From a virus, in IMG/VR virus record IMGVR_UViG_3300025128_000003, positions 1 through 56,002 of that record: DNA of 56,002 nt; one strand, given 5' to 3'. The stretch's first letter is position 1, and the number at the start of each line of letters is the position of its first letter. Both the position numbers and the translations under genes were made by a program. Shown one piece after another: positions 3,088 through 56,002 of this stretch. The notes under the pieces were generated by a model. It was not told the DNA's origin and searched no databases. It saw only the letters and a program-made list of their open reading frames with translations.

Positions 3088-3365
3088 TATACCATATTCC
3101 AATCTTCATCTGTAGCTTCCCAATTAGATGTTGCAGATTCCCACAATAAATTTCTATCATTATTAAGAGGAGGTCTTGGATTTTGAATTGATTCGTCATC
3201 TTTAACATTAGGTGTTTTATTTTGTGGATGGTTTTTTAAGTCATATGCTCCATCAAAATCTGTTGGGCAAACTAGTAATCCATAACTATTCTTTTTTAAA
3301 ATTCTATGTGGATACATAAAACCACATACATCACATATACCTTTAGCCTTTCTATCAGTAGCCAT
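3087..3365 (-). CDS. Small zinc-ribbon-like phage protein
   Basis: 92 residues. Cysteines at ICDVCGF and near LVCPTDFDG form a CxxC...C pattern, suggesting a small metal-binding ribbon, although a fourth ligand is not obvious. The C-terminal half is proline-, asparagine- and tryptophan-rich and probably extended. It overlaps the genes on both sides by one to a few bases, so it belongs to the late operon between the neck adaptor and the tail fibre. Function unknown; a minor structural or assembly role is inferred from position only. Confidence 0.6.
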   Translation of the reverse strand: MATDRKAKGICDVCGFMYPHRILKKNSYGLLVCPTDFDGAYDLKNHPQNKTPNVKDDESIQNPRPPLNNDRNLLWESATSNWEATDEDWNMV

Positions 3366-4039
3366 TATACGGCTCTTAGTTTAGGTTTAAAGAAGATACT
3401 AGCACGTTCGGAATCTTCTGTCAAGGCTCTTTCTAATAATTCTTCATAATTTTGTTTAAGAAAAGTAATTTTACCAGCATCTACACCGGGACGTTTAATA
3501 GACATATAAAAAGCTAGACCAGCAGATAAGCAAGGCAAGAACCTTTTTGGAACATCTGCATTTTGTCCAGCCGATTTATTTATATCTTCTAACTCTCTAA
3601 TTTTTTCAACTTTCAAAACATCGGTTGAGTTTTCTGGAATAGGCCAGATAAAGAGAATTGGATTATCTCTGTCTCTTTTAATTGAATATTGTGTAGCTCT
3701 TCCTGTCTGTCCCTTTTGAGGAATTTGTAAATACTCTTCATATGATATTCTAGTTAAAGGTAAATCAGTATTATCTCTATTTACAATAACCTGTAAAGCA
3801 TCAATGGTTGCACCACTCAAAGCATACGAAGACACACTAGCGGTAACAGTAATTGCAGAAGCTTCCGTTGACCATAGAAGAATACCTCTGTTCTGCCAAT
3901 CTTTTAGCATTAAGTTAAGAGAACGTCTAGCAGAAGCTGGCTCATGACCAAGGGTTTGCTCACCCCCAATCATTTCAGTTGCTTCTTGAATTACATCATC
4001 AATCTCTAATGTAAAATTAAATGTACCACTAGTAGCCAT
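3365..4039 (-). CDS. Head-tail adaptor, P22 gp4-like
   Basis: 224 residues. The N-terminus (DDVIQEATEMIG, then RRSLNLMLKDWQNRGILLW) has the helical pattern of P22 gp4-type neck adaptors, which attach below the portal ring. The remainder is mixed alpha/beta with a basic C-terminus (FFKPKLRAV). An AAGG ribosome binding site lies over the stop region of the tiny upstream reading frame. A second adaptor-like gene sits at 7209-7868. The family call rests on pattern recognition. Confidence 0.65.
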   Translation of the reverse strand: MATSGTFNFTLEIDDVIQEATEMIGGEQTLGHEPASARRSLNLMLKDWQNRGILLWSTEASAITVTASVSSYALSGATIDALQVIVNRDNTDLPLTRISYEEYLQIPQKGQTGRATQYSIKRDRDNPILFIWPIPENSTDVLKVEKIRELEDINKSAGQNADVPKRFLPCLSAGLAFYMSIKRPGVDAGKITFLKQNYEELLERALTEDSERASIFFKPKLRAV

Positions 4040-4042
4040 TTA

Positions 4043-4129
4043 CTATTTCCTTTTAACTTTTTTCTTAGTTTTTTTCTTTTGAGGAGGTTTAGTAATCTGT
4101 TGTTTTATGTTTGACCTAGTAATAGTCAC
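4043..4129 (-). CDS. Tiny lysine-rich peptide (GTG start)
   Basis: 28 codons from a GTG at 4129, with AAGG upstream. The second half is almost entirely lysine (PPQKKKTKKKVKRK). It fills the gap between the KKTKYM-repeat protein and the gp4-like adaptor, and its stop sits over the adaptor's ribosome binding site. It matches the strong basic bias of the genes upstream. It may be a real DNA-binding or condensing peptide or just a spacer; there is no homology evidence. Confidence 0.35.
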   Translation of the reverse strand: MTITRSNIKQQITKPPQKKKTKKKVKRK

Positions 4130-4131
4130 TT

Positions 4132-4281
4132 TTACTTTTTCCTTTTAGATGCCATTGCATATCTTTGGGGAACAGGTCCACCTTTAGACATATACTTTGT
4201 TTTCTTTATAGCGCCACCCTTAGACATATATTTAGTTTTTTTAACTGGGCCACCTTTAGCCATGTATTTAGTCTTCTTCAT
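4132..4281 (-). CDS. 49-residue KKTKYM-repeat basic protein
   Basis: The ATG at 4281 overlaps the end of the 228-residue gene in another frame. The protein is three tandem 12-residue units of the form KKTKYM(A/S)KGG(P/A)(V/I), followed by a short basic tail. The 36-nt DNA units differ mainly at synonymous or conservative positions, so the peptide repeat seems to be maintained. It shares the K-G-G motif with four neighbouring basic proteins. Function unknown. Confidence 0.6.
   Translation of the reverse strand: MKKTKYMAKGGPVKKTKYMSKGGAIKKTKYMSKGGPVPQRYAMASKRKK
4132..4281 (-). repeat. Three tandem 36-nt coding repeats
   Basis: Three in-frame units, each encoding KKTKYMxKGGxx, span about 4170-4280. 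Copies differ at several third-codon positions, so they are not a recent slippage product. Confidence 0.65.
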
Positions 4282-4954
4282 CTTCCGCATCATTCATCTC
4301 CTCTTGATATAGATTATTAAAAGTTAAAAAAGGATTCATGTAACTATCATGAATTTCTGCTGAATGAACATATTGACTTGGAGCAAAATCTGGTGCGCCT
4401 TCTCCAGTTACCCATAATGCAGGATTAGTAACTCTAACTCTGTTATTAGGTAATGCAATAATATTACCTGTATATTCTCCAGCATCAATTAATTCTAATA
4501 CATGAGATTGTTTATGTTGTGCTGGATCATCAGATATTGCACTATCTGTATAATCAACAGTAAATAAATATCTCCCAGTATAAAAAACATTATCAATCTT
4601 ACATAACCAAGGACTTGAAGAAACTCTATCCATGACTACTACTGCATGATTTCTAGAAGAACAATCCCAAGGTTGAGCTAAATGTGTCGCCATTTTAGTA
4701 GGCCATTCTTCTAACATAGTATCAGCTACTAAAGCTGTAATGGGCATTCTAGCCCACATTGCTCCACCATGTATATTTTCTTCTTCATCACATCCAGTAA
4801 ATACAACATTAAAACTTAATGATCTATCTGGTATAGTATTAACTGCTATTACTAAAGCATGTAAATACTCACCTTCGTATTCCATGTGATTATGTGTAAA
4901 CTCTTTTCTTACCCAACATTTAAAGTGTGGAATGTTTGAAGTTAAATACGCCAT
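4268..4954 (-). CDS. Conserved marine-phage virion-region protein, unknown function
   Basis: 228 residues beginning MAYLTSNIPHFKCWVRKEF. From memory this N-terminus recurs in cyanophages and other marine phages as an unannotated protein in structural modules. The internal segment HGGAMWARMPITALVAD is likely conserved. There is no signal peptide or TM helix, and the C-terminus is acidic (NDAEDEED), unlike its very basic neighbours. It sits between the basic-protein cluster and the neck adaptor. Function unknown. Confidence 0.6.
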   Translation of the reverse strand: MAYLTSNIPHFKCWVRKEFTHNHMEYEGEYLHALVIAVNTIPDRSLSFNVVFTGCDEEENIHGGAMWARMPITALVADTMLEEWPTKMATHLAQPWDCSSRNHAVVVMDRVSSSPWLCKIDNVFYTGRYLFTVDYTDSAISDDPAQHKQSHVLELIDAGEYTGNIIALPNNRVRVTNPALWVTGEGAPDFAPSQYVHSAEIHDSYMNPFLTFNNLYQEEMNDAEDEED

Positions 4955-5518
4955 TTAACATCTCCATCTTCTTCTAGCTTGGCGTAATCTAGAATTAGGA
5001 TTCTTAGCAGCTTTTGGAAACTTCTTCATTTGTCCCGCTGATCTAGCACAATAACTTTTACGTCTTGCTGCTCTAGCCTTGCTAGGTTTCTTTTCAGTTA
5101 CAGCAGTTTTAAGTTTACTACCGGGATTTTCTCTACGATATTTAGCTACTCCTTTAGCGGTCATACCTGCTCCTTTTTTAGTAGGACGCTTTTGACCTCC
5201 GCTAATGGTATGCCCCTTCATACCTTTACCAGTTGATTTTCTTTTAGTAGCCACCGTTCCACCCTTTTTTCTATAAGCACTTGTCTTCTTAGCAACCCCT
5301 TTTGGTTGCTTAGAAAACTGTTTACCCTTTTTAGTATCCTCTCTTTTCTTACGAGTAGATGCTGCATATTCAGACGAAGAGAGAGATTTGATTGCCTTTT
5401 CGGGTAGATATCTCTCTCCTGTCGCCTTCGGACCTTGTGTAGAGGGTTTGCCCGATTTCGTTCTCCACTTTTGCTTTGTCCAGTCTTTCAGATTTTTCTG
5501 TGACTTTGCAAGTGTCAT
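4955..5518 (-). CDS. Very basic protein with DUF5872/DUF6321-like segments
   Basis: 187 residues, rich in K and R throughout. The N-terminal part (LKDWTKQKWRTKSGKPS, then KATGERYLP) and the C-terminal part (GMTAKGVAKYRRENPGSKLK, later RKSYCARSAGQMKK and a terminal RRRWRC) resemble two small conserved phage/giant-virus domains I recall as DUF5872 and DUF6321. A RKKGGTV motif lies between them. The acidic-free, arginine-rich composition suggests nucleic-acid binding or packaging with DNA. It overlaps the next gene by one base. Confidence 0.6.
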   Translation of the reverse strand: MTLAKSQKNLKDWTKQKWRTKSGKPSTQGPKATGERYLPEKAIKSLSSSEYAASTRKKREDTKKGKQFSKQPKGVAKKTSAYRKKGGTVATKRKSTGKGMKGHTISGGQKRPTKKGAGMTAKGVAKYRRENPGSKLKTAVTEKKPSKARAARRKSYCARSAGQMKKFPKAAKNPNSRLRQARRRWRC

Positions 5519-5850
5519 TAGCTTTTGTAACCCCCGCCTTTTTTCTTGTATTGCTGTGCCAGCATCTGTGCTTTTCTAGCTGACCACTGACCGGGTGCGC
5601 CTCCCTTACCACCTGCTTTAATCTTGTTAAATAAATTTTTACGCATAGTTGGCTTTGTATAATTACCTGCCTCATTGACTCTGGACTTCTTAGCAGTTCC
5701 ACCTGTTTTCCTTTTTGTAATTACGCCACCCTTCTTAGCAGTCTTAGCTCCTGTTCGTACAGCTTTTAAATCAGCACCTGTAATTTTATTTCTAGGTGAT
5801 GCAACCCTTGCTAATTTTTTTTGTTTAGGACTGTACTTAGAAAAAGGCAT
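5518..5850 (-). CDS. Basic KKGG-motif protein, 110 residues
   Basis: Lysine- and arginine-rich, with KKGGVITKRKTGG in the first half and KKKGGGYKS at the C-terminus. The core NEAGNYTKPTMRKNLFNKIK followed by GAPGQWSARKAQMLA looks like a conserved phage sequence seen from memory in other marine phages, with no assigned function. It overlaps both neighbours by one base, so it is co-translated. A DNA-associated internal head protein is one possibility; unproven. Confidence 0.6.
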   Translation of the reverse strand: MPFSKYSPKQKKLARVASPRNKITGADLKAVRTGAKTAKKGGVITKRKTGGTAKKSRVNEAGNYTKPTMRKNLFNKIKAGGKGGAPGQWSARKAQMLAQQYKKKGGGYKS

Positions 5851-6356
5851 TATATCTGTCCTCCAGATTTATACCCATACATTACATTTTTATTACCTAT
5901 CATACCGCCACCTCGTTTATAAACAACCTGACCACCTTTTTTACGAGAGGCGCTTCTCTTTTTATCTTGAGCTTGCTGTAATAAATCTTTTTTAGACTCA
6001 AGTTGATTCTGTAATTTTTTACCTATAGATGCTCTTTCTTTAATCGTTTTACTTTTATCAGCAGTATTTTCTTTTATTTGTTGTTGTATATTTTTTATTT
6101 CTTCCATATTCTTTTTTTCTGCAGCAGTAGCATCTTTTATACTTTTTCTTTTTCTTGCTGATTTAGCACCTATTTCTTGTAAATAAGAAGATTCACCAAC
6201 TGTAACTTTACCAGCTTTACCAGTTTCTACATCTCTCATACCGGGATAATTAGCAGTATCAACCATTGATCTAGCTTCTAATTTTCTAGCTACATCAGCA
6301 GGTTTATTTTTACGTTTTCTTTTAGCTGTTGGTTTAAAAATTTTTCCTTTAGACAT
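5850..6356 (-). CDS. Basic coiled-coil protein with C-terminal GG motifs
   Basis: 168 residues. The N-terminus is strongly basic (KRKRKNK). The central ~70 residues have a charged heptad pattern (EEIKNIQQQIKEN, then KKLQNQLESKKDLLQQ), consistent with a coiled coil. The C-terminus carries three spaced GG motifs (RKKGGQVVYKRGGG, YKSGGQI). The same motif type ends the next three upstream/downstream proteins, so it is a family signature of this cluster. Function unknown. Confidence 0.6.
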   Translation of the reverse strand: MSKGKIFKPTAKRKRKNKPADVARKLEARSMVDTANYPGMRDVETGKAGKVTVGESSYLQEIGAKSARKRKSIKDATAAEKKNMEEIKNIQQQIKENTADKSKTIKERASIGKKLQNQLESKKDLLQQAQDKKRSASRKKGGQVVYKRGGGMIGNKNVMYGYKSGGQI

Positions 6357-6360
6357 AATA

Positions 6361-6990
6361 TTAGCTCCTTACTTTTCCATAGCCACTAAGAGCTTTACCA
6401 ACACCTACAGGACCACCTTTTTTCTTATAGCTAATTTGTCCACCTTTTTTCTTTATTCTAAGCAAGCCACTTTCTACTAGCTCATCTATTTCACTTTTAT
6501 CAATAGCACCTCTAGCATTTAAACCCATTGCTTCTGCAATATTACCAACCTCGTCACTAAACTCACCAATATTTCTTTTAGTGGCAGGATCAATAAGTCC
6601 CATTGCTCTACGTTGTCTAGTTTGTCTTTTAGACATTTTAGGAAGCTCTACTTTAGAAAGAGCAGGTCTATTTGGACCTTCAGCTACACCTTCAACATTT
6701 CTTCTTCTAGGCATAGCAGGAGACATTTCTCCCATGCTTTCCATATCAGAAGCTCTTTTAAGTGCGGCAATTTCTCTACCTCTTTTACCTTTCGGCATTT
6801 CGGTATCTTTTCTTTTAGCAGTTCCTGTCTTCCGTCTTGTTTTTGGTCCCGGCTTTCCAGACTCTTCCCATTTCTTAACAGAAGTAAAACCAGCAGCTTT
6901 TGCTTTAGCTTTTATTTCAGGAGAAATAGCCTTACGACCTTTACCTTTTCTGCCTCTTTTCTTTTTTACTAAACTTTTTGCTTTAGCCAT
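6361..6990 (-). CDS. Basic KKGG-motif protein, 209 residues
   Basis: The N-terminal 75 residues are lysine- and arginine-rich (KKKRGRKGKGRK) and histone-tail-like. A middle domain (GEFSDEVGNIAEAMGL...KSEIDELVESGLL) looks like a small helical fold. The C-terminus ends in RIKKKGGQISYKKKGGPV, the cluster's signature. The gene lies directly downstream of a 65-residue protein and upstream of the coiled-coil protein. Probably a virion or assembly protein; function unknown. Confidence 0.6.
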   Translation of the reverse strand: MAKAKSLVKKKRGRKGKGRKAISPEIKAKAKAAGFTSVKKWEESGKPGPKTRRKTGTAKRKDTEMPKGKRGREIAALKRASDMESMGEMSPAMPRRRNVEGVAEGPNRPALSKVELPKMSKRQTRQRRAMGLIDPATKRNIGEFSDEVGNIAEAMGLNARGAIDKSEIDELVESGLLRIKKKGGQISYKKKGGPVGVGKALSGYGKVRS

Positions 6991-7001
6991 GATACTATTC
7001 C

Positions 7002-7199
7002 TTATACCGAGTAATCATATTCTTTGTTGTCAATGACAACTTTTTCAAACTGAATAGAATCACCCTCTGCTGCTGGACCTTTTCTAGCTGCTCCATAACC
7101 TTTTCCAGTTGGACGAGCTACAGCATCCATACGCTCTTCTTTATAACGATCAAATCCAGCTTTATCATAAGAATACTTTTTATTGTTAATAAGTGGCAT
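7002..7199 (-). CDS. Small conserved hypothetical protein, 65 residues
   Basis: Starts MPLINNKKYSYDKAGFDRY and ends FEKVVIDNKEYDYSV. A GGAGG ribosome binding site (AGGAGGGAAC) lies just before the ATG. There are no recognisable motifs beyond repeated (K/E)YxY-like ends. It sits in the neck region between an adaptor-like gene and the basic cluster. Function unknown. Confidence 0.55.
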   Translation of the reverse strand: MPLINNKKYSYDKAGFDRYKEERMDAVARPTGKGYGAARKGPAAEGDSIQFEKVVIDNKEYDYSV

Positions 7200-7208
7200 A
7201 GTTCCCTC

Positions 7209-7868
7209 CTAACTACTTCCTTGAATAATTGTGTTAGCACTACCTGCCGGGCTTGAATTAAGCTCCATATTATCTTGCCTAGCTCTTCTAGCTTGATTAC
7301 GAAGACCATCAATTGAAGCTTTAAGTTCAGCTTGCCATGCTGGTACAGTATTAAAACTTTTATTAAATAAAGATGCTTCCACCATTGATGCATAAAAAAG
7401 AGCATCATAACAAAAATCTGAAAAATAATTGTTTGGTGCAGCAGATGTTAAAGCAGCAGGTCTAGCCACATAAACAACTTCTGTGTCATATGCAGAGGCA
7501 GGAGTGGGGGCAAGATAAATCTGCGTATTACTCCGCATTGCATAATACTTAGGTTCGCCAACAGATGAAGAAACAAAAGGCCAATAGTCATTTACATACT
7601 CTTGGCTTCTTTGTAACAAATTAATTTTTGAACCTGAAACTTTAATATTAATATTTCTAATTATTCTTGTATCTGATGCAAGAGAAACAAGTGGATTATT
7701 AACACTTGTTGTAACAGATGTAATTTGATTTAGTGCGACATCATCTAATTCTTTAATAAGACGAAATTCTGCCTTATTAATAATAACAGGAATTTGATCA
7801 GTAAAATCCTGCGAATCATTTTCAGATGTATTTCTAATATCAGATACAAGTTCACTATAAGAAGGCAT
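7209..7868 (-). CDS. Tail-tube/adaptor-like neck protein
   Basis: 219 residues. The pattern SYSELVSDIRNTSEN...QIPVIINKAEFRLIKELD, then QRSQEYVNDYWP, GEPKYYAMRSNTQIYLAPTP and a Y-x-RPA segment fits a widespread marine-phage adaptor family that I place near T7 gp11-type tail tubular A proteins. Such proteins form the ring between portal and tail. Its position, a few genes after the capsid gene, fits. The assignment is from motif memory. Confidence 0.65.
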   Translation of the reverse strand: MPSYSELVSDIRNTSENDSQDFTDQIPVIINKAEFRLIKELDDVALNQITSVTTSVNNPLVSLASDTRIIRNINIKVSGSKINLLQRSQEYVNDYWPFVSSSVGEPKYYAMRSNTQIYLAPTPASAYDTEVVYVARPAALTSAAPNNYFSDFCYDALFYASMVEASLFNKSFNTVPAWQAELKASIDGLRNQARRARQDNMELNSSPAGSANTIIQGSS

Positions 7869-8224: not shown

Positions 8225-9184
8225 TTACGATCCACCAGCGTTACCGAAGTAACCTCTCCAATCAGACCAACCAAAGCTATAACGCTCTCTGGCCTTGAAG
8301 CGAAGATTACCAGTATCGAAGTCTGGCTCCATCTTCGTCTGAAGTGGCGCTCTAACAAACATCTTAGGTCCGTTAGGAACATTCGTTCTAACAAACCAAG
8401 CATCAGTGTCCGTAAAGCGACGATTGATAAAGCAACCCTTCGGAAGCATCGACATACTCTGAATCGAGTTGACATCGTTCCATCCTGACGGGTTGGTAGC
8501 GGCTTGTGATCCACCAAGAGCGGAAACCGTACCAGACGCAGGAATCAGGGTTGAATTAAGTAGAGAGTTCGACGTTGCCCAGTTATCTGGCGCAACATGC
8601 AGTGAAACTCCCGAACCACCTACAAGAATGCCTCTATCATCCGTAATCTTTTGAATGGCAGTAAGGCCAGCTTCCAACGAAGCAAACGAAAGGTCTGCAG
8701 CAGTTAGGAGGTTGGACTGAGTGCCATCGACAGTCGGATGGGCATTACTGAAAAGAGGCTCACCGTCGCCGCCATGATAGGCAGCAGCATCAGTGAAACC
8801 GTTGTTGAAGATATCAGCAGCTTTAACCTGCTTCGTATTACCCATTGCTCTCGCAAGAGCTTTAGCTCTCAACTTAGCAAAGGTGTCATACAAATTATCT
8901 TCCATAGCTTCTTCCGTTACCGCAAAGGCAAGGGAAATCGTTTCGTTGACATAACGAGCAACATAACTTTCACTTGCTTCATCGTAAGTAACTGCAGCAC
9001 CTTCACCCTTCACAGGTGCAGTGCCGAAGCCTGTGAACAGAACTTCTTCTTCAAAAGCTCTGTCTGAGTTTTCAACCTCAAAAAGAGGTTCATGCTCATT
9101 ATCGACTTCTCCATATTCTAGTCCAAATACAGCATTCAGACCGGGGAGAAGTTCTTTTGCAATACTAGCTCTATTAATAGCCAT
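8225..9184 (-). CDS. Major capsid protein, Mu gpT-like
   Basis: 319 residues, the usual size for HK97-fold capsid proteins. Recognisable stretches are VARYVNETISLAFAVTEEAM (N-arm/spine region), ARAMGNTKQVKAADIFNNGF and PLFSNAHPTVDG, which are characteristic of the Mu gpT-type major head subunit. No cleaved N-terminal prodomain is evident, and scaffolding is supplied by a separate gene at 10323. Codon use looks more GC-rich than its neighbours, as expected for the most highly expressed gene. A hairpin follows the stop. Confidence 0.88.
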   Translation of the reverse strand: MAINRASIAKELLPGLNAVFGLEYGEVDNEHEPLFEVENSDRAFEEEVLFTGFGTAPVKGEGAAVTYDEASESYVARYVNETISLAFAVTEEAMEDNLYDTFAKLRAKALARAMGNTKQVKAADIFNNGFTDAAAYHGGDGEPLFSNAHPTVDGTQSNLLTAADLSFASLEAGLTAIQKITDDRGILVGGSGVSLHVAPDNWATSNSLLNSTLIPASGTVSALGGSQAATNPSGWNDVNSIQSMSMLPKGCFINRRFTDTDAWFVRTNVPNGPKMFVRAPLQTKMEPDFDTGNLRFKARERYSFGWSDWRGYFGNAGGS

Positions 9185-10322: not shown

Positions 10323-11294
10323 TTAACTCCCTCGGCCAAATGTTATGTCTGTGTAATCACCATCTGAACTATCAACTTTTAATTTTTCAGCGGCATATAC
10401 TTCAAGTGGAATATTCCATTTATTTGCAAGTCGAACATCTTCTTGTGAAAGTTTAATCTTCTTGCTAGATGTTGCTGGCGACCGGGAAGCTCCAGCGACC
10501 ACTTGAGCAGCAGGTGCCGTCTGCTGCGAACGATTATCTTCACTCACCTCTTGGTCAGTAAACTTGTGTGGAAATTCAGTTCGTAGTCTACGATTAATTT
10601 CCGTATAAAAATCTTCTTCGTCAGGATCGTATCCCATTTGCTTTAGCTCTGCATCAATAGCAAGGGCTGAAGCTGTCATAACACTATCCTTACCAAACCA
10701 TTCATTTTCTGCCGCCCATTCTTCTGCTCTAGGATCAGGAGTTCTTTGAGCGGGTTGTTGCTGTTGTGGTTGTTCTGCTTGTTTCTTAGCTTCTTCTTCT
10801 TTTGCTTTAGTATAATTATCTAGAGCAGCTTTTTGCTTACTCAAGTTATCTAAATCAAGTTGACTTCTTTGAAGAACTTCTAGTGTTTGAAGAACTTTTT
10901 CTCCGTCACCAGAATTATAAGCATCTAGATATGCAGACTTAGCCAACGCAACTTTATCATTTAACTGTTGCTCACTCATATTTGTAGTTGTTTTTTGAGT
11001 GTCAACAAAACTTTGTTCTTGGCTCGAAAGTCTTTCTTGTAGTTCTTTCTTTTCTTGTAGCAAAGCCTCTATTTGTTCTTCTCGTTCTTTACGCTGCTTT
11101 ACTAATTGCCTAATTCTTTTTTGTGCGCCATTCGTTTCAATACCGTCAAGCTCTTTTATTTCTTCTTTCTTAGGAGCTTCTGCTTTAACTTCAGGCTCTG
11201 CTTGTTTTGCAGGAGGTGGAGTATCTTCTTCAATTTCATACTCTACCTTTTCTGGGATAGTAACGTCACCCCATTCGTCATTATTTTCTTCCAT
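10323..11294 (-). CDS. Scaffolding protein
   Basis: 323 residues, acidic N-terminus (MEENNDEWGD, EIEEDTPPP), then a long charged helical/coiled-coil region (residues ~60-180, QKRIRQLVKQRKEREEQIEA) and a basic C-terminal helix (KKIKLSQEDVRLANKWNI). This composition and its place just before the capsid gene are standard for podophage scaffolds, which guide procapsid assembly and then exit. A dedicated promoter lies 53-81 bp upstream of the start. Confidence 0.8.
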   Translation of the reverse strand: MEENNDEWGDVTIPEKVEYEIEEDTPPPAKQAEPEVKAEAPKKEEIKELDGIETNGAQKRIRQLVKQRKEREEQIEALLQEKKELQERLSSQEQSFVDTQKTTTNMSEQQLNDKVALAKSAYLDAYNSGDGEKVLQTLEVLQRSQLDLDNLSKQKAALDNYTKAKEEEAKKQAEQPQQQQPAQRTPDPRAEEWAAENEWFGKDSVMTASALAIDAELKQMGYDPDEEDFYTEINRRLRTEFPHKFTDQEVSEDNRSQQTAPAAQVVAGASRSPATSSKKIKLSQEDVRLANKWNIPLEVYAAEKLKVDSSDGDYTDITFGRGS

Positions 11295-43830: not shown

Positions 43831-46293
43831 TTATCCTTGTTCATCAGAAGCTTTTTGAGCTTTACCTATTTTAGCTCTAGCTGCGTCTATTGTTGCTTGA
43901 GTAGTTCCAGCTTCTTTGCCCCGTCTACTGCCTGTCCTTGCTAAAGATAAAGCAAAAGCATTTGCAGTATTAACAGCAGATGTTGGATTAACACCTTCAT
44001 TTAATAAAGTTGTAAATCTATTATATACCTGTAACTTTTGAAAAGGTTCAATTGTTAAGTCGTTTATACTTTTTACTAATTTATCATATGCTTCATTACC
44101 ATCTAAACCATACCTATTTGCTATTCGTTCAGCTTGGGCTTTTGCTGATCTTAAATTATTTTCAGATTCAAGTTTACTTCTTTCCATATCAAGTTTAGTT
44201 TTAGCTAAATTAATATTAAGCTTATCTTTTAAGATATCACCCTCAATATCTTTAGCTGCTCTGCTTTCTTTTCTAAAGTCACTTTGTATATTTTTTAGTT
44301 CTGCAATAGAAGGTAGTGTAGCCTGATTTAGCTTTGCAAGAACCCCACCGGGTCCAGCTTTACCAGCAAACCTAGCTGATGTTGCAGCAAATTCTGCAAA
44401 TAATCTTGCTTCTCTAGCCTCTTCTGCTTCAGATAATCTTTCAGCACCCTCTCCTTTTTTCTTTTCTAAGAAAGATAGATAGTCACTAAATGCTGTATCA
44501 AGCTCATCATAACTATCTGATAAAGGAGTTCCCTCTTTATTTACAAGATTATTTAATTGTTTTGGGTCTAAAACAGATTTCTCAACTTCAGCAGATTTAA
44601 TAGCTGCATTTGCAGCTTTTTCTATATTAGCTTCTTTTTTAATTACTTCAGATGATTCTTGCGGACCAAAAGCTGCATCATCTGCTAGTACATCGCTACC
44701 TACAACATCTCTGTTATCAATCATTTTAGGTAATTGTCTTGTATCTGCTATGCCACCCGGTAAAGGTGCAGCAATTTGAGTTAATGCTTCTTCACCTAAA
44801 GATTTTTTTCTACTTACTTCTCCACCCGCCAAAGGTGTTGAACCAAAAGGTGCAAATATATCTTGTTCTTGTTGAGTAAGATAATCAACTGTTCTAGAAG
44901 TTGGTATTTGACCTGATCCTAAACCTTCATCTACTTCTGTTATTGATGGAGGATCAACAGCTATACTTAATGGAACTGTTGGTGTAGCTTGAGCAGCTAT
45001 TAACTCTTCAAGAGAACCAACAGGTTTAGCTCTTGCTGCTAATGAAGAATCTGAACCTCTAACAGTTCTAGGTGTACCAATAAGACTAGAAATTTTTTCT
45101 AAAAAATTAGCACCTACATTACGAATACTACTATCTCTTTGTTCAGCTTCTAATGGAGTTGGTCCCGATGGTGCTGATATACCTACTGGTCTACCATACA
45201 TTCTCACATTTGGAATATTATATTGTCTAGTATTATTTTGATGTCTTTCTAAACTAGCCAAGCCACCTCTAATTTGTCCACCAGATTGACGAGGTACTAC
45301 CTGACCACCTGCTTTATTCTTAAAGCCACCCAAGGCACCAAAGATACCAACGCCTGTACCAAGTGTACCAAGAAGCTGTTGACCAAAGCTAGGTTGTGGT
45401 GTTTGTTGAGTTGTAACCTGATACGTTGACGGGGAGAATGGATATGCATTTACAAGAGCATTATACTCTTGTAATTGACGTAGTGGAAACTCTCTTTGTT
45501 CTATAAAGTCTCTCTCAGCTAAATTTAGTGCAGCTTGTTCTTGGGCTTGTTGAGCTTCACCAACACTAGAAAGCAATGCAAGTTCTCTTGCAGCTTGTGC
45601 AGGAACAGCTTCACCAAGACTTGAAAATAATCCAGCACCCGTTAATTGTCTTTGCTTTTCAGCTTCAAAAGATCGTTGAGCTTGTTCAAAAGCTGTAGCT
45701 AAACCTTTACTTTCAATATCATCAAGCTGACGTTGCAAGTTTCTTTGTGCTTCAGCCTCAAGAATAGCTGCTCTTGACCCGCCAAATGATCCAGCACCTA
45801 CAGCCTCTGCTCTTAGTTTAGGTTCAATAACACTTTCAAACTGTCTAACAGTTTCTCTTTTAGCTTCATCAATAACTGGCCGATATACATCTTGTGTAAA
45901 TCTTTCAAAATCTTCACCAGTAAAACCTAATGATCCAAGCCCAGCTTTTTCTTTAGCCTGTTGAAAGAACTGGGGTGATCTACCTAAGTCAGTTGAAGCA
46001 AGTCCCTGTCTTCCTAACGCTGCAAGACCAGTAAAAGCTTCTTGCTGTTCAGGAGCAAAGTCAGCAATTCTTGGACCAGTAAACTGATCGAAAGCTCTAA
46101 GCTGTTGAACAGTATCACCTGTATCTGGGTCTGTTGCATCTTCAAAGAACTGCGCCCTACCCGCTTCTAATACATCTTGAATAAAAGGTTTAGTTATATT
46201 AAACCCTTCATTTGTTAATGCTCGGGCTGAAACAGCAGTAGGACCACCGCCAAACTGTCCTGACCCACCAAAAACATTTGCTAATACACCCAT
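43831..46293 (-). CDS. Internal virion protein, 820 residues
   Basis: Starts MGVLANVFGGSGQFGGGP. The first ~270 residues are helical and Gln/Glu/Ala-rich (EAEAQRNLQRQLDDIESKGL), then a hydrophobic Gly segment (LGTLGTGVGIFGALGG) directly before KNKAGGQVVPRQSGGQIRGG, which echoes the GG motifs of the basic cluster. Likely an ejection or internal core protein by composition and neighbours. Confidence 0.65.
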   Translation of the reverse strand: MGVLANVFGGSGQFGGGPTAVSARALTNEGFNITKPFIQDVLEAGRAQFFEDATDPDTGDTVQQLRAFDQFTGPRIADFAPEQQEAFTGLAALGRQGLASTDLGRSPQFFQQAKEKAGLGSLGFTGEDFERFTQDVYRPVIDEAKRETVRQFESVIEPKLRAEAVGAGSFGGSRAAILEAEAQRNLQRQLDDIESKGLATAFEQAQRSFEAEKQRQLTGAGLFSSLGEAVPAQAARELALLSSVGEAQQAQEQAALNLAERDFIEQREFPLRQLQEYNALVNAYPFSPSTYQVTTQQTPQPSFGQQLLGTLGTGVGIFGALGGFKNKAGGQVVPRQSGGQIRGGLASLERHQNNTRQYNIPNVRMYGRPVGISAPSGPTPLEAEQRDSSIRNVGANFLEKISSLIGTPRTVRGSDSSLAARAKPVGSLEELIAAQATPTVPLSIAVDPPSITEVDEGLGSGQIPTSRTVDYLTQQEQDIFAPFGSTPLAGGEVSRKKSLGEEALTQIAAPLPGGIADTRQLPKMIDNRDVVGSDVLADDAAFGPQESSEVIKKEANIEKAANAAIKSAEVEKSVLDPKQLNNLVNKEGTPLSDSYDELDTAFSDYLSFLEKKKGEGAERLSEAEEAREARLFAEFAATSARFAGKAGPGGVLAKLNQATLPSIAELKNIQSDFRKESRAAKDIEGDILKDKLNINLAKTKLDMERSKLESENNLRSAKAQAERIANRYGLDGNEAYDKLVKSINDLTIEPFQKLQVYNRFTTLLNEGVNPTSAVNTANAFALSLARTGSRRGKEAGTTQATIDAARAKIGKAQKASDEQG

Positions 46294-46306: not shown

Positions 46307-48022
46307 TTAACTCATTAATGATTGAAGAGCTTTACCACCATCCATCTCTGGAGGTTGCATATCTCTACCATATTTTTCTTTTCTAAATTCACTGATAAAT
46401 TCATCCATCTCATCTGCACCATCATCAGGATTACCATTCCCAATCATAGCCATAACATCAGCAGGTACAACATATTCTTTAGGAGACACTGCTAGAAGAC
46501 CACCACCTTTAATTTCCATTATCTGATTATCTTCCATGCCATGTCCATCACCAGCTACAATACCTTCAAAGTCTGGGCTACCACCAGCAGCTAAACCAAC
46601 AAGCCCTCCCTGTGCAGCAGGAACAAATTGAGTGGGACCAAAGAACTCAAAGCCTCCACCTTCAATAGCCCTACGTCTAGCTTCTGCTGCTGTAAGACCA
46701 GCACCAGTACCACCAAATTCGCCAACTCTTCTACGAGCAGAGACCCTTCTACGAGCTATAGGTGCAGGAATACCCTGACTAATAAGTTGTTGTGCAGCTT
46801 CTTCCTCTGCCATGCGTTGAGCTTCAATAGCATCTACAAGGCTAGTAGCTTCAACAGAGGCTAACCCTCTACCTAAATCTCCAAATATAGCACCAGTATC
46901 TAATTCTCCATAAAGGTCTCTATATCCGTCTGGAATTGCTTTAAAACCTGCTTGTAAACCATCTTTACTAGCTGCTGCTTTAGCAGGAGCAAATCTATCA
47001 ATATATGCTGCTTCTCCTGTACCTGCATAAGCTTCCTCTGGAACAAAAAAATCAGCAGTTAGTTGTCTTTCTGCAGCTAATCTTGGAATTTGTTCAGCAT
47101 TTAGTCCAGCCATACCCAGCCTGCTTTCTATTGGACCTAAATTTTTAGTATCTTTAAACTGTTCTTGTGCTTTATTATATACTTCTAAAGAAGTAAGAGG
47201 TCTACTTGTTTTTGTTAGTATCCTGCTAGGTAAATTAAAAACATTACTTGGACTTGAAATAGCTGCTAATTCAGCAGTTGTTCGGTTATTAAGTGCATCA
47301 GGTATACCCGGTAAAGAACCAGTTTTTTCTCCTAAAATATCTTTATACAACGGATCATCAAGAGGTATAAGTTCGTCATAATCAGTAATATCAATATCTG
47401 GAACTCTGTAACCTTCAGAATCAATCAAGTTAGTGGCGGCTTTATCACCTCCAAAAAGATATGGTCTCTTAGCTCTAGCTTTTGATAATTCTCTAGCTCT
47501 AAGATATTGTCTTTCCCTTGACTCTTTTATATAGTCATCACTATCTTTAATTCCTAAACGCTGATCATTTGGTCCTAAAAATTCAGCTAATTTACCAGTA
47601 CCGTATTGCAAACCACCAGACACAATACCAGAAGATAATGAATCACTTAAACTTCTAAATGGTAAAGAGCCTAATGCTGTACCTGCACCAGATAAAATAG
47701 ACTTAGTAGCTAGAGGACTAAGACCTAACTGTGAGAAAGCAGGACCAGCAATAGCAGGTAAAGCAATAGAAGCTATAGCAGGAATAATATTTTCTGGTTT
47801 AAAGTAATTTTTAACAGCAGATTTAACAGTATCAAATACATCACCTAAGAAATACTCAGGCAATCCAGTATCAGGATTAATAGACATTAGACCAGATTCT
47901 TGAAGTCTTCTAACTTCTGGTCTTGTCATGTGTACAAGTTCTGTATCTCCTCCTCTACCTTGTAGAGCAAGAAGAGAAGCTACACCACTCTGTGGTGCTT
48001 GTCTATTAATAAATACTGCCAT
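46307..48022 (-). CDS. Internal virion protein, 571 residues
   Basis: Hydrophobic core segment near residues 75-130 (IIPAIASIALPAIAGPAFSQ). The C-terminus holds QGGLVGLAAGGSPDFEG, MEDNQIMEIKGGG and SPKEYVVPADVMAMIGNGNP, a block typical, from memory, of marine-phage tail or internal proteins. Overlaps the 437-residue gene upstream by 17 nt. Probably part of the ejected core or tail tip. Confidence 0.65.
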   Translation of the reverse strand: MAVFINRQAPQSGVASLLALQGRGGDTELVHMTRPEVRRLQESGLMSINPDTGLPEYFLGDVFDTVKSAVKNYFKPENIIPAIASIALPAIAGPAFSQLGLSPLATKSILSGAGTALGSLPFRSLSDSLSSGIVSGGLQYGTGKLAEFLGPNDQRLGIKDSDDYIKESRERQYLRARELSKARAKRPYLFGGDKAATNLIDSEGYRVPDIDITDYDELIPLDDPLYKDILGEKTGSLPGIPDALNNRTTAELAAISSPSNVFNLPSRILTKTSRPLTSLEVYNKAQEQFKDTKNLGPIESRLGMAGLNAEQIPRLAAERQLTADFFVPEEAYAGTGEAAYIDRFAPAKAAASKDGLQAGFKAIPDGYRDLYGELDTGAIFGDLGRGLASVEATSLVDAIEAQRMAEEEAAQQLISQGIPAPIARRRVSARRRVGEFGGTGAGLTAAEARRRAIEGGGFEFFGPTQFVPAAQGGLVGLAAGGSPDFEGIVAGDGHGMEDNQIMEIKGGGLLAVSPKEYVVPADVMAMIGNGNPDDGADEMDEFISEFRKEKYGRDMQPPEMDGGKALQSLMS

Positions 48023-54680: not shown

Positions 54681-56002
54681 TTACCTACCATATATAGGTG
54701 GTAGTATTCCATTGCCACCTATATCTGCCATAGCCATATATAAAATAGTATTACCGTCACCATTAGGTGCGCTATCGCCACTCAGTGGGCGAAAGCCTTC
54801 AGCTAACAAATCAATATCATAATCACTTCCACTCGCTGGTCCTCTTGCAGCTTCTGCATCTTCGTCATTTGGAAAAAGAAACAGTTCAGCAGGGTTTGAT
54901 GGTGATCTTGCTGTATCAGTTATTACCCAGTCTCTAGCAACTGGAGCATTTTTAAAAATAACAAATCTTGGACGAAATCCCAAGTGAACATACGGAGGAA
55001 CAGTAGAACTACCATTGCCTATATAACTTCCTACTTTACATACACCCGGCACTGATCTAAAGGCGTACATTATAAACGGTTCTCCACTGGCATTTACTTC
55101 AGTACTTAGTCCTAATGTAATAATACTACTGGTTGGTGCTGTATCATTCCAAAGGGTAGTATCATCGTCCCAAACCGCAGCAGATTCTAATCTGCCAAAA
55201 TCTGTTTGTGGGTCACTGGCAGAATATTCATGGTAGGTTATCCATCCTCGTTCCGCATGACTGCTTTCTTTTGTGAAGAAAAATTCTGGCGCTCCACTCA
55301 TGCCATGTTTTATACTAGCTCCAGCATTTCCATCACCTGTATAACTAATAATTGAAAATGCATCACTTGCACTAATACGACCACTTGAATCAATAGTGCC
55401 TATGCTAGTTGAACTTGCATCGTTAGTCCATGCAGTACTTGCTTGCCAACACCATGCTACAAAGTTTTCAGTGTTATCGTTATATCCGTTGGCTCCACTA
55501 CCCAGAGAAAATGATCCAGTGCCAAAAGCAGTAAGGCCATTAGTGTCTGTGCTTTCTGCCGCAGTTGAGTCACTTGACAATTCCTTTGTAGCCCCTCGTA
55601 CAACGTCTACCAGCTTATGCTCATCATCTTGAGAACGATTTTTAAGCCACACCCAAGCTGGATCAATATCAGTTGAAATTGATCTTACAGAGCCGTTACC
55701 CGTATATGTTACAGGTTGAAAATAATCTACGCCTTGATTTTCTGGTCCTGTTAGGTTTGCAGAACAAGGTGCTAAAAACGTAGCTGGTACAGCATATTTA
55801 AAAAGCCCATGTCCATTTTCATCAACGTTTGTTCCAGCAGTTTCATTCCCAGAGAAAGTTGGATTATCACCAAAATTTATAACTCCAATATCACCCGACC
55901 TTTGCAAACCTATTACAAAGATATAATCTTGAACTGTTAGTTGGTCATCATGGTTATCAATATTTAGTGTAGTACTAGCTGTTGCAGAACCATTTCTCCA
56001 TG
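54681..56002 (-). CDS. LamG/SPRY tail-fibre protein, C-terminal part
   Basis: Continuation of the gene at 1-1395; the frame stays open to the window end, so a TTG at 55907 is not its start. Residues ~490-865 contain the block WVWLKNRSQDDEHKLVDVVR, FSLGSGANGYNDNTENFVAW and a GYIGNGSS-like repeat GSYIGNGSSTVPPYVHLGFR, which fits the DUF7483-type beta domain common in marine-phage tail proteins. It ends MADIGGNGILPPIYGR. The last 119 bases repeat the window start. Confidence 0.75.
   Translation of the reverse strand, partial: WRNGSATASTTLNIDNHDDQLTVQDYIFVIGLQRSGDIGVINFGDNPTFSGNETAGTNVDENGHGLFKYAVPATFLAPCSANLTGPENQGVDYFQPVTYTGNGSVRSISTDIDPAWVWLKNRSQDDEHKLVDVVRGATKELSSDSTAAESTDTNGLTAFGTGSFSLGSGANGYNDNTENFVAWCWQASTAWTNDASSTSIGTIDSSGRISASDAFSIISYTGDGNAGASIKHGMSGAPEFFFTKESSHAERGWITYHEYSASDPQTDFGRLESAAVWDDDTTLWNDTAPTSSIITLGLSTEVNASGEPFIMYAFRSVPGVCKVGSYIGNGSSTVPPYVHLGFRPRFVIFKNAPVARDWVITDTARSPSNPAELFLFPNDEDAEAARGPASGSDYDIDLLAEGFRPLSGDSAPNGDGNTILYMAMADIGGNGILPPIYGR
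55884..56002. repeat. Terminal direct repeat, right copy
   Basis: Identical to bases 1-119. Confidence 0.95.

Follow-up and report, generated by a model that had tools for sequence, protein, structure and literature searches.

A two-part, glycine-rich peptide closes many otherwise unlike proteins encoded beside the capsid, portal and adaptor genes of marine podophages. It is C-terminal and modular, it is restricted to late genes of the head module, and it is conserved at the protein level. In relatives of the window, by which is meant the whole stretch analysed, the 56,002-base virus record IMGVR_UViG_3300025128_000003, the tag reads K-x-GG-K-V ... P-R-G-V-G-A-A-L-R-G-Y-G-K-A-M, and the KGG motif is its front part. 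The tag itself is well supported. Its function is inferred and, taken as a whole explanation, a head-targeting signal is considered somewhat probable.

The KGG cluster and its genome

The window carries an exact 119-base direct repeat at both ends (1-119 and 55884-56002) and is therefore probably a complete circular or terminally redundant genome. Its terminase, portal, capsid and SU10-type adaptors mark it, at the level of sequence, as a podophage. Late genes occupy the minus strand at both ends of the record and early genes the plus strand in the middle. The portal is 40-43% identical to those of DSL-LC04, 023Pt_psg01, HTVC023P and CRP-901, and no close DNA relative of the window was found among isolated phages.

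The five small basic genes with KGG repeats described in the initial annotation are present on the minus strand between two head-tail adaptor genes, SU10-type adaptor 1 (7209..7868; PF24175, 84 bits) and SU10-type adaptor 2 (3365..4039; PF24175, 41 bits), both also on the minus strand and forming the borders of the cluster. Two different adaptor genes of this type within one genome, one on each side of the cluster, were observed. The five products, designated P1, P3, P4, P5 and P6, contain 3, 2, 3, 3 and 2 [KRS]GG motifs, respectively. They had been said to end in or repeat KKGG, KRGG or KSGG; motifs occur in all five, but the last residues of P3 are ...RRRWRC, its KKGG being at an internal position. 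The GG motifs attributed to two larger proteins are likewise real as pairs, GGQVVPRQSGG and GGLVGLAAGG, but hardly basic. These minus-strand features are AGGQVVPRQSGGQIRGG in the 820-aa DNA-ejection-like protein (45259..45309) and GGLVGLAAGG in the 571-aa late protein (46580..46609).

All genes of the cluster lie on the minus strand. P6 (6361..6990; 209 aa, net charge about +33) has a basic N-terminus, KKKRGRKGKGRK, a divergent body and a conserved C-terminus, and its relatives have little in common except the ends. P5 (5850..6356; 168 aa) has a basic coiled-coil-like body and, by its sequence, a KGG-rich C-terminal tail (5853..5945); it ends in KKGGQVVYKRGGG...YGYKSGGQI without the core tag. 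P1 (4132..4293; 53 aa, or 49 if translation starts at an inner ATG) contains three KKTKYMxKGGxV/I repeats. Family searches with P1, P5 and P6 gave nothing above threshold; weak Pfam matches of P5 (FlxA and others) fell below the cut-offs and were set aside as coiled-coil noise. The KGG stress-repeat family (PF10685) was also rejected, as none of the five proteins gave a match to it at E <= 1. An acidic 228-aa protein (4268..4954), assigned to phrog_3704, called 'ferredoxin' in PHROGs and without a Pfam match, is encoded between the P1 and P3 genes. The last gene of the cluster is probably a tiny basic ORF (4043..4129; 28 aa, GTG start, MTITRSNIKQQITKPPQKKKTKKKVKRK). Next to P6, a 65-aa protein (7002..7199) contains a conserved RPTG(Q/K)G(Y/F)GAARKGP that is similar to the tag core but internal, not C-terminal.

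P3 (4955..5518; 187 aa, net charge +51) is classified by sequence as a new member of DUF6321 (PF19846), a known Pfam family without a described function; residues 116-185 score 51.1 bits against a curated cut-off of 28.5. In an alignment restricted to the DUF6321 domain, the paired cysteines of the family (S-F/Y-C-A-R ... W-x-C) are present in P3 as SYCARS...RWRC, and in DUF6321 relatives they are lost together (SFLARM...AWGA), which suggests a disulfide or metal pair. Residues 1-84 of P3 correspond to phrog_14910, the C-half of DUF5872 (PF19197), and residues 52-109 of P4 (5518..5850; 110 aa, net charge +28) match phrog_17747 and the N-half of the same family, which likewise has no described function. 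The two halves are one protein in L028 and L062. Neither P3 alone nor P4 alone matched DUF5872 over its curated cut-off of 27.5 bits, and the fused relatives, at 24.2 and 19.0 bits, are also below it. The claim made here is confined to homology: P3 and P4 appear to be homologous halves of DUF5872, jointly covering a family that is split over two genes in the window. A sequence search of solved structures gave no relatives for P3, P4 or the tagged proteins. No solved structure matched the predicted folds of DUF5872 (a fused relative, mean pLDDT 85) and DUF6321 (77.5); significant matches in a viral library were obtained, yet no function followed from them. In two other loci (L084:5761-7125 and L155:6410-7657) the C-half of DUF5872 is joined to long proteins with GG repeats, in which EF-hand-like DLTGDGKVTRADVL and SDGEFV motifs occur.

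Enrichment of the motif was evaluated against composition-preserving shuffles, each protein being shuffled separately, 200 times. The late-strand proteins of the window contain 21 occurrences of [KR].?GG.[VILM] against 3.4 expected (about 6-fold), a count reached in 0 of 200 shuffles; KKGG was seen 6 times (0.4 expected) and GG.[VILM]..GG pairs 7 times (1.0 expected). The early-strand proteins showed no excess of [KR].?GG.[VILM], with 1 against 1.1. A lack of enrichment in the late proteins of related phages had been named as part of the refuting condition; enrichment was instead confirmed in seven relatives (58 against 23.7), the early proteins of the same relatives having 10 against 9.6. Plain [KR]GG lacking the hydrophobic residue showed no enrichment in the relatives (63 against 58.7); the unit that carries meaning is therefore basic-GG-x-hydrophobic.

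A two-part C-terminal tag on unlike late proteins

The shared motif had been read as a sorting tag, a modification site or a DNA-binding element. The first is the best supported of the three, inasmuch as a common tag was found on unlike late proteins, but KGG is its front flank only, and the conserved core, a C-terminal RGxGxAxRGxGK, had been missed. The full layout is K-x-GG-K-V, a short spacer (mostly 2-22 residues) and then RGxGxAxRG(Y/F)GKA. A regular expression applied to a set of loci returned 66 tagged ORFs, whose bodies fell into 43 clusters. Because circularity was to be avoided, the virus collection was scanned at the DNA level for G[VA]G.A.RG[YF]GK by a pattern that is blind to gene ends. 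Among the matches listed, the tag is no more than 20 residues from the stop in 91 of 92 ORFs and no more than 10 in 90, and GG is found upstream of the core in 81 of 91. The 92 ORFs listed have unrelated bodies in at least 32 clusters, although some of these may be diverged relatives, since the clusters come from BLAST with low-complexity filtering. Where one locus carries two tags, they are on different bodies (14 of 14 among the matches listed). Furthermore, the flanks outside the scan pattern are conserved, with K-P-R before it and A, M/L and K/R after it.

The tags of adjacent unlike proteins in one genome have the same residues and different synonymous codons; in L133, the codons differ at 8 of 10 identical tag residues. 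A DNA-level repeat in place of a peptide was rejected, since the codons differ where the residues agree.

A profile derived from 82 tags in other phages, with the window excluded, gave a single significant match in the window, P6 (E 7e-6, 22 bits). The matching region comprises residues 179-206 (6373..6456, minus strand), IKKKGGQISYKKKGGPVGVGKALSGYGK, and is imperfect, with ALSGYGK in the core. P1, P3, P4 and P5 of the window are without the core tag; an aligned relative of P5 in L004 does have it. Sharing by all five proteins, as first supposed, is thus narrowed in the window to P6, the only one that clearly has the core, P3 and P4 being accounted for by DUF6321 and the split DUF5872. By tblastn, P6 had no match among the cultured phages of the collection.

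The neighbours of tagged genes are consistent. In nearly all of the 77 tag loci they are those of the window's podophage clade, and the tagged genes lie either in the interval bounded by the two adaptors, which is also the arrangement of the window, or between the TerL and portal genes, there accompanied by a phrog_3704 gene of the kind that is also part of the window cluster. In other members of the clade, this gene was seen to move with the tagged genes to the second position. In whole genomes, 11 of 11 proteins with the C-terminal core are on the late strand. When 25 complete adaptor intervals were chosen by capsid and not by tag, the strict profile found a tag in 15 and at least two tags in 8; it found none in 10, at least four of which show variants. 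The strict pattern had one match in 84,980 cellular genomes, and the contig concerned encodes the capsid and adaptors of this clade. In a Crocinitomicaceae MAG, the contig L319 (PACT01000004.1) belongs to a phage of the clade and has two tagged proteins; its place in that MAG may reflect either a host link or mis-binning. Judged by these sequences, the tag is used by a large group of uncultured marine phages, in which many unrelated, strongly charged head-module proteins carry it.

Proposed head targeting and the alternatives

The KGG cluster would be one lineage's version of a head-cargo locus, at which many unrelated basic proteins, encoded beside the capsid, portal and adaptor genes, bear a short C-terminal signal. 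This signal would most likely dock on one shared procapsid partner, that is, the scaffold, the inner face of the coat or the portal; docking would load the tagged proteins into the head ahead of DNA packaging, and they would then be delivered along with the DNA into the cell. The untagged P4 and P3, with DUF5872 and DUF6321, may represent additional cargo or core modules of this type. A 323-aa gene (10323-11294) upstream of the capsid gene (8225-9184) is a candidate scaffold, judged from position and acidity alone.

Three lines of evidence point to the head: the genome position and late strand of the tagged genes, the fusion of the tag to recognisable folded domains (DUF6321 in L483 and the peptidoglycan-binding LysM in L222), and the company kept by DUF6321. 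In cyanomyophages the DUF6321 gene is often found between both terminase genes. In the N-terminus of the cyanophage DUF6321 protein S-SZBM1_192, MKTFKQYITEA, residues 4 and 7 are aromatic and I-x-E occupies 8-10; these positions are reported to matter in the T4 capsid targeting sequence (PMC9026906), and this start fits the T4 rules; no such start was seen in the other, longer cyanophage DUF6321 proteins. Moreover, gp137 of S-CREM2 (108049-109521) contains DUF6321, and 4 unique peptides place it in the reported virion proteome (PMC10665884 Table 3), at a coverage of 4.1% and with possible carry-over mentioned by the authors (PMC10665884). Counting against this line, S-SZBM1_192 is absent among the 30 proteins detected in the S-SZBM1 virion (PMC9146016).

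The alternative that survives best, although unlikely, is that the tag and the KGG tails bind nucleic acid as DNA-condensing or nucleoid-binding elements with no docking partner, the glycine-spaced K/R gripping the phosphate backbone. The tagged proteins have a median net charge of +35 and about 26% K+R among the matches listed, P1 has the KGG spacing, and an AT-hook-like RGRP is present in a close P6 relative (KRGRPKGSKK in L002, to be compared with the AT-hook core (R/K)GRP in basic context; P6 itself has KKKRGRKGKGRK without RGRP). However, a charge-only tail would preserve neither the invariant G-x-G-x-A and Y/F-G nor the fixed stop distance (within 10 residues in 90 of 92 ORFs among the matches listed), and the proteins with the variant RGTGAATKG..RGPMA seem, by eye, not strongly basic.

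Because tagged genes flank the adaptor and portal genes, and because the LysM domain carried by one of their products would be in keeping with a tail or ejection role, the tag could instead mediate docking or assembly for the portal-adaptor-tail complex, or be a site of maturation or proteolysis, its bearers being tail or neck parts and not head cargo. This is improbable, as the bodies are many, low-complexity and 61-668 aa long, unlike fixed-stoichiometry neck parts, and several tagged proteins are found in one genome. It is more doubtful still that the tag has its role once delivered or inside the infected cell, in host-target binding, localisation or degradation, and not in assembly. The bodies look like no structural family, and action of injected proteins on the host is known from the T4 internal proteins (PMC9391042), but the tag is confined to late head-module genes, with none in early genes. 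That proteins rich in K and G yield KGG by composition, their ends being alike by accident, is scarcely credible given the shuffles and the C-terminal concentration in the independent scan, and it is refuted for the tag, P1 and P5 by themselves being weaker cases.

Variant tags and known targeting signals

Related peptides close the proteins of other phages. The sequence RGTGAATKGxMxRGPMA is found at the end of short proteins and is C-terminal in 79 of 79 ORFs. The ADGIAQRGKTRGK variant lies within 12 residues of the stop in 88 of 100 ORFs, on many bodies and up to four times per contig, and is often preceded by KKGGKV, the motif noted in the initial annotation. When 56 tagged proteins were aligned jointly, one G of the upstream GG and the core G-x-A-x-x-G were invariant, and the R before the last G of the core was nearly so; the podophage variants have the common core G-x-A-x-R/K-G. 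No matches were obtained by tblastn with the variant-tag proteins, a search in which short low-complexity queries may escape detection, and no occurrence of six tag peptides was found in 5.4 million open-access papers. In the metagenome-assembled DSL-LC04 (L164:1315-1542), a tag-like RGMGCATRGGGAV is located at the N-terminus and is possibly a signal at the other protein end.

If it functions in head targeting as proposed, the tag would be a new variant of terminal head-targeting signals. The scaffolding protein of P22 has a basic C-terminal element that binds coat, but this segment is a folded helix-turn-helix of one protein, whereas the tag is spread over many. In T4, nearly every protein fused to the capsid targeting sequence is taken into the prohead (PMC7697877, PMC9026906). 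Like that of the T4 internal proteins, the tag is a short terminal peptide common to otherwise unlike head proteins, and all 14 double-tag loci among the matches listed show such sharing by unlike proteins of one phage. The T4 sequence, however, is N-terminal, about 10 residues long and removed at L/I-x-E, whereas the tag is glycine-rich, basic, without known cleavage and C-terminal in 91 of 92 ORFs among the matches listed. In phage P1, the N-terminal signal of DarB is sufficient for loading a reporter into heads (PMC9024508); it too is terminal, but it is N-terminal, more than 9 and up to 30 residues long, and without a consensus among the Dar proteins.

We tentatively propose, at somewhat less than even confidence, that aquatic podophages may use a general C-terminal loading code, in which the lineage tags RGVGAALRGYGKAM, ADGIAQRGKTRGK and RGTGAATKGxMxRGPMA, built on the core G-x-A-x-R/K-G, would direct a large set of rapidly changing proteins into the virion. 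Such a code would be an analogue of the T4 capsid targeting sequence without being related to it. Abundant aquatic phages encode many short basic proteins that are classed as unknown. If the proposed function is true, a shared terminal address would mark such proteins immediately as virion cargo, the delivered proteins could be listed from sequence alone, and the tag would provide a ready signal for loading reporters.
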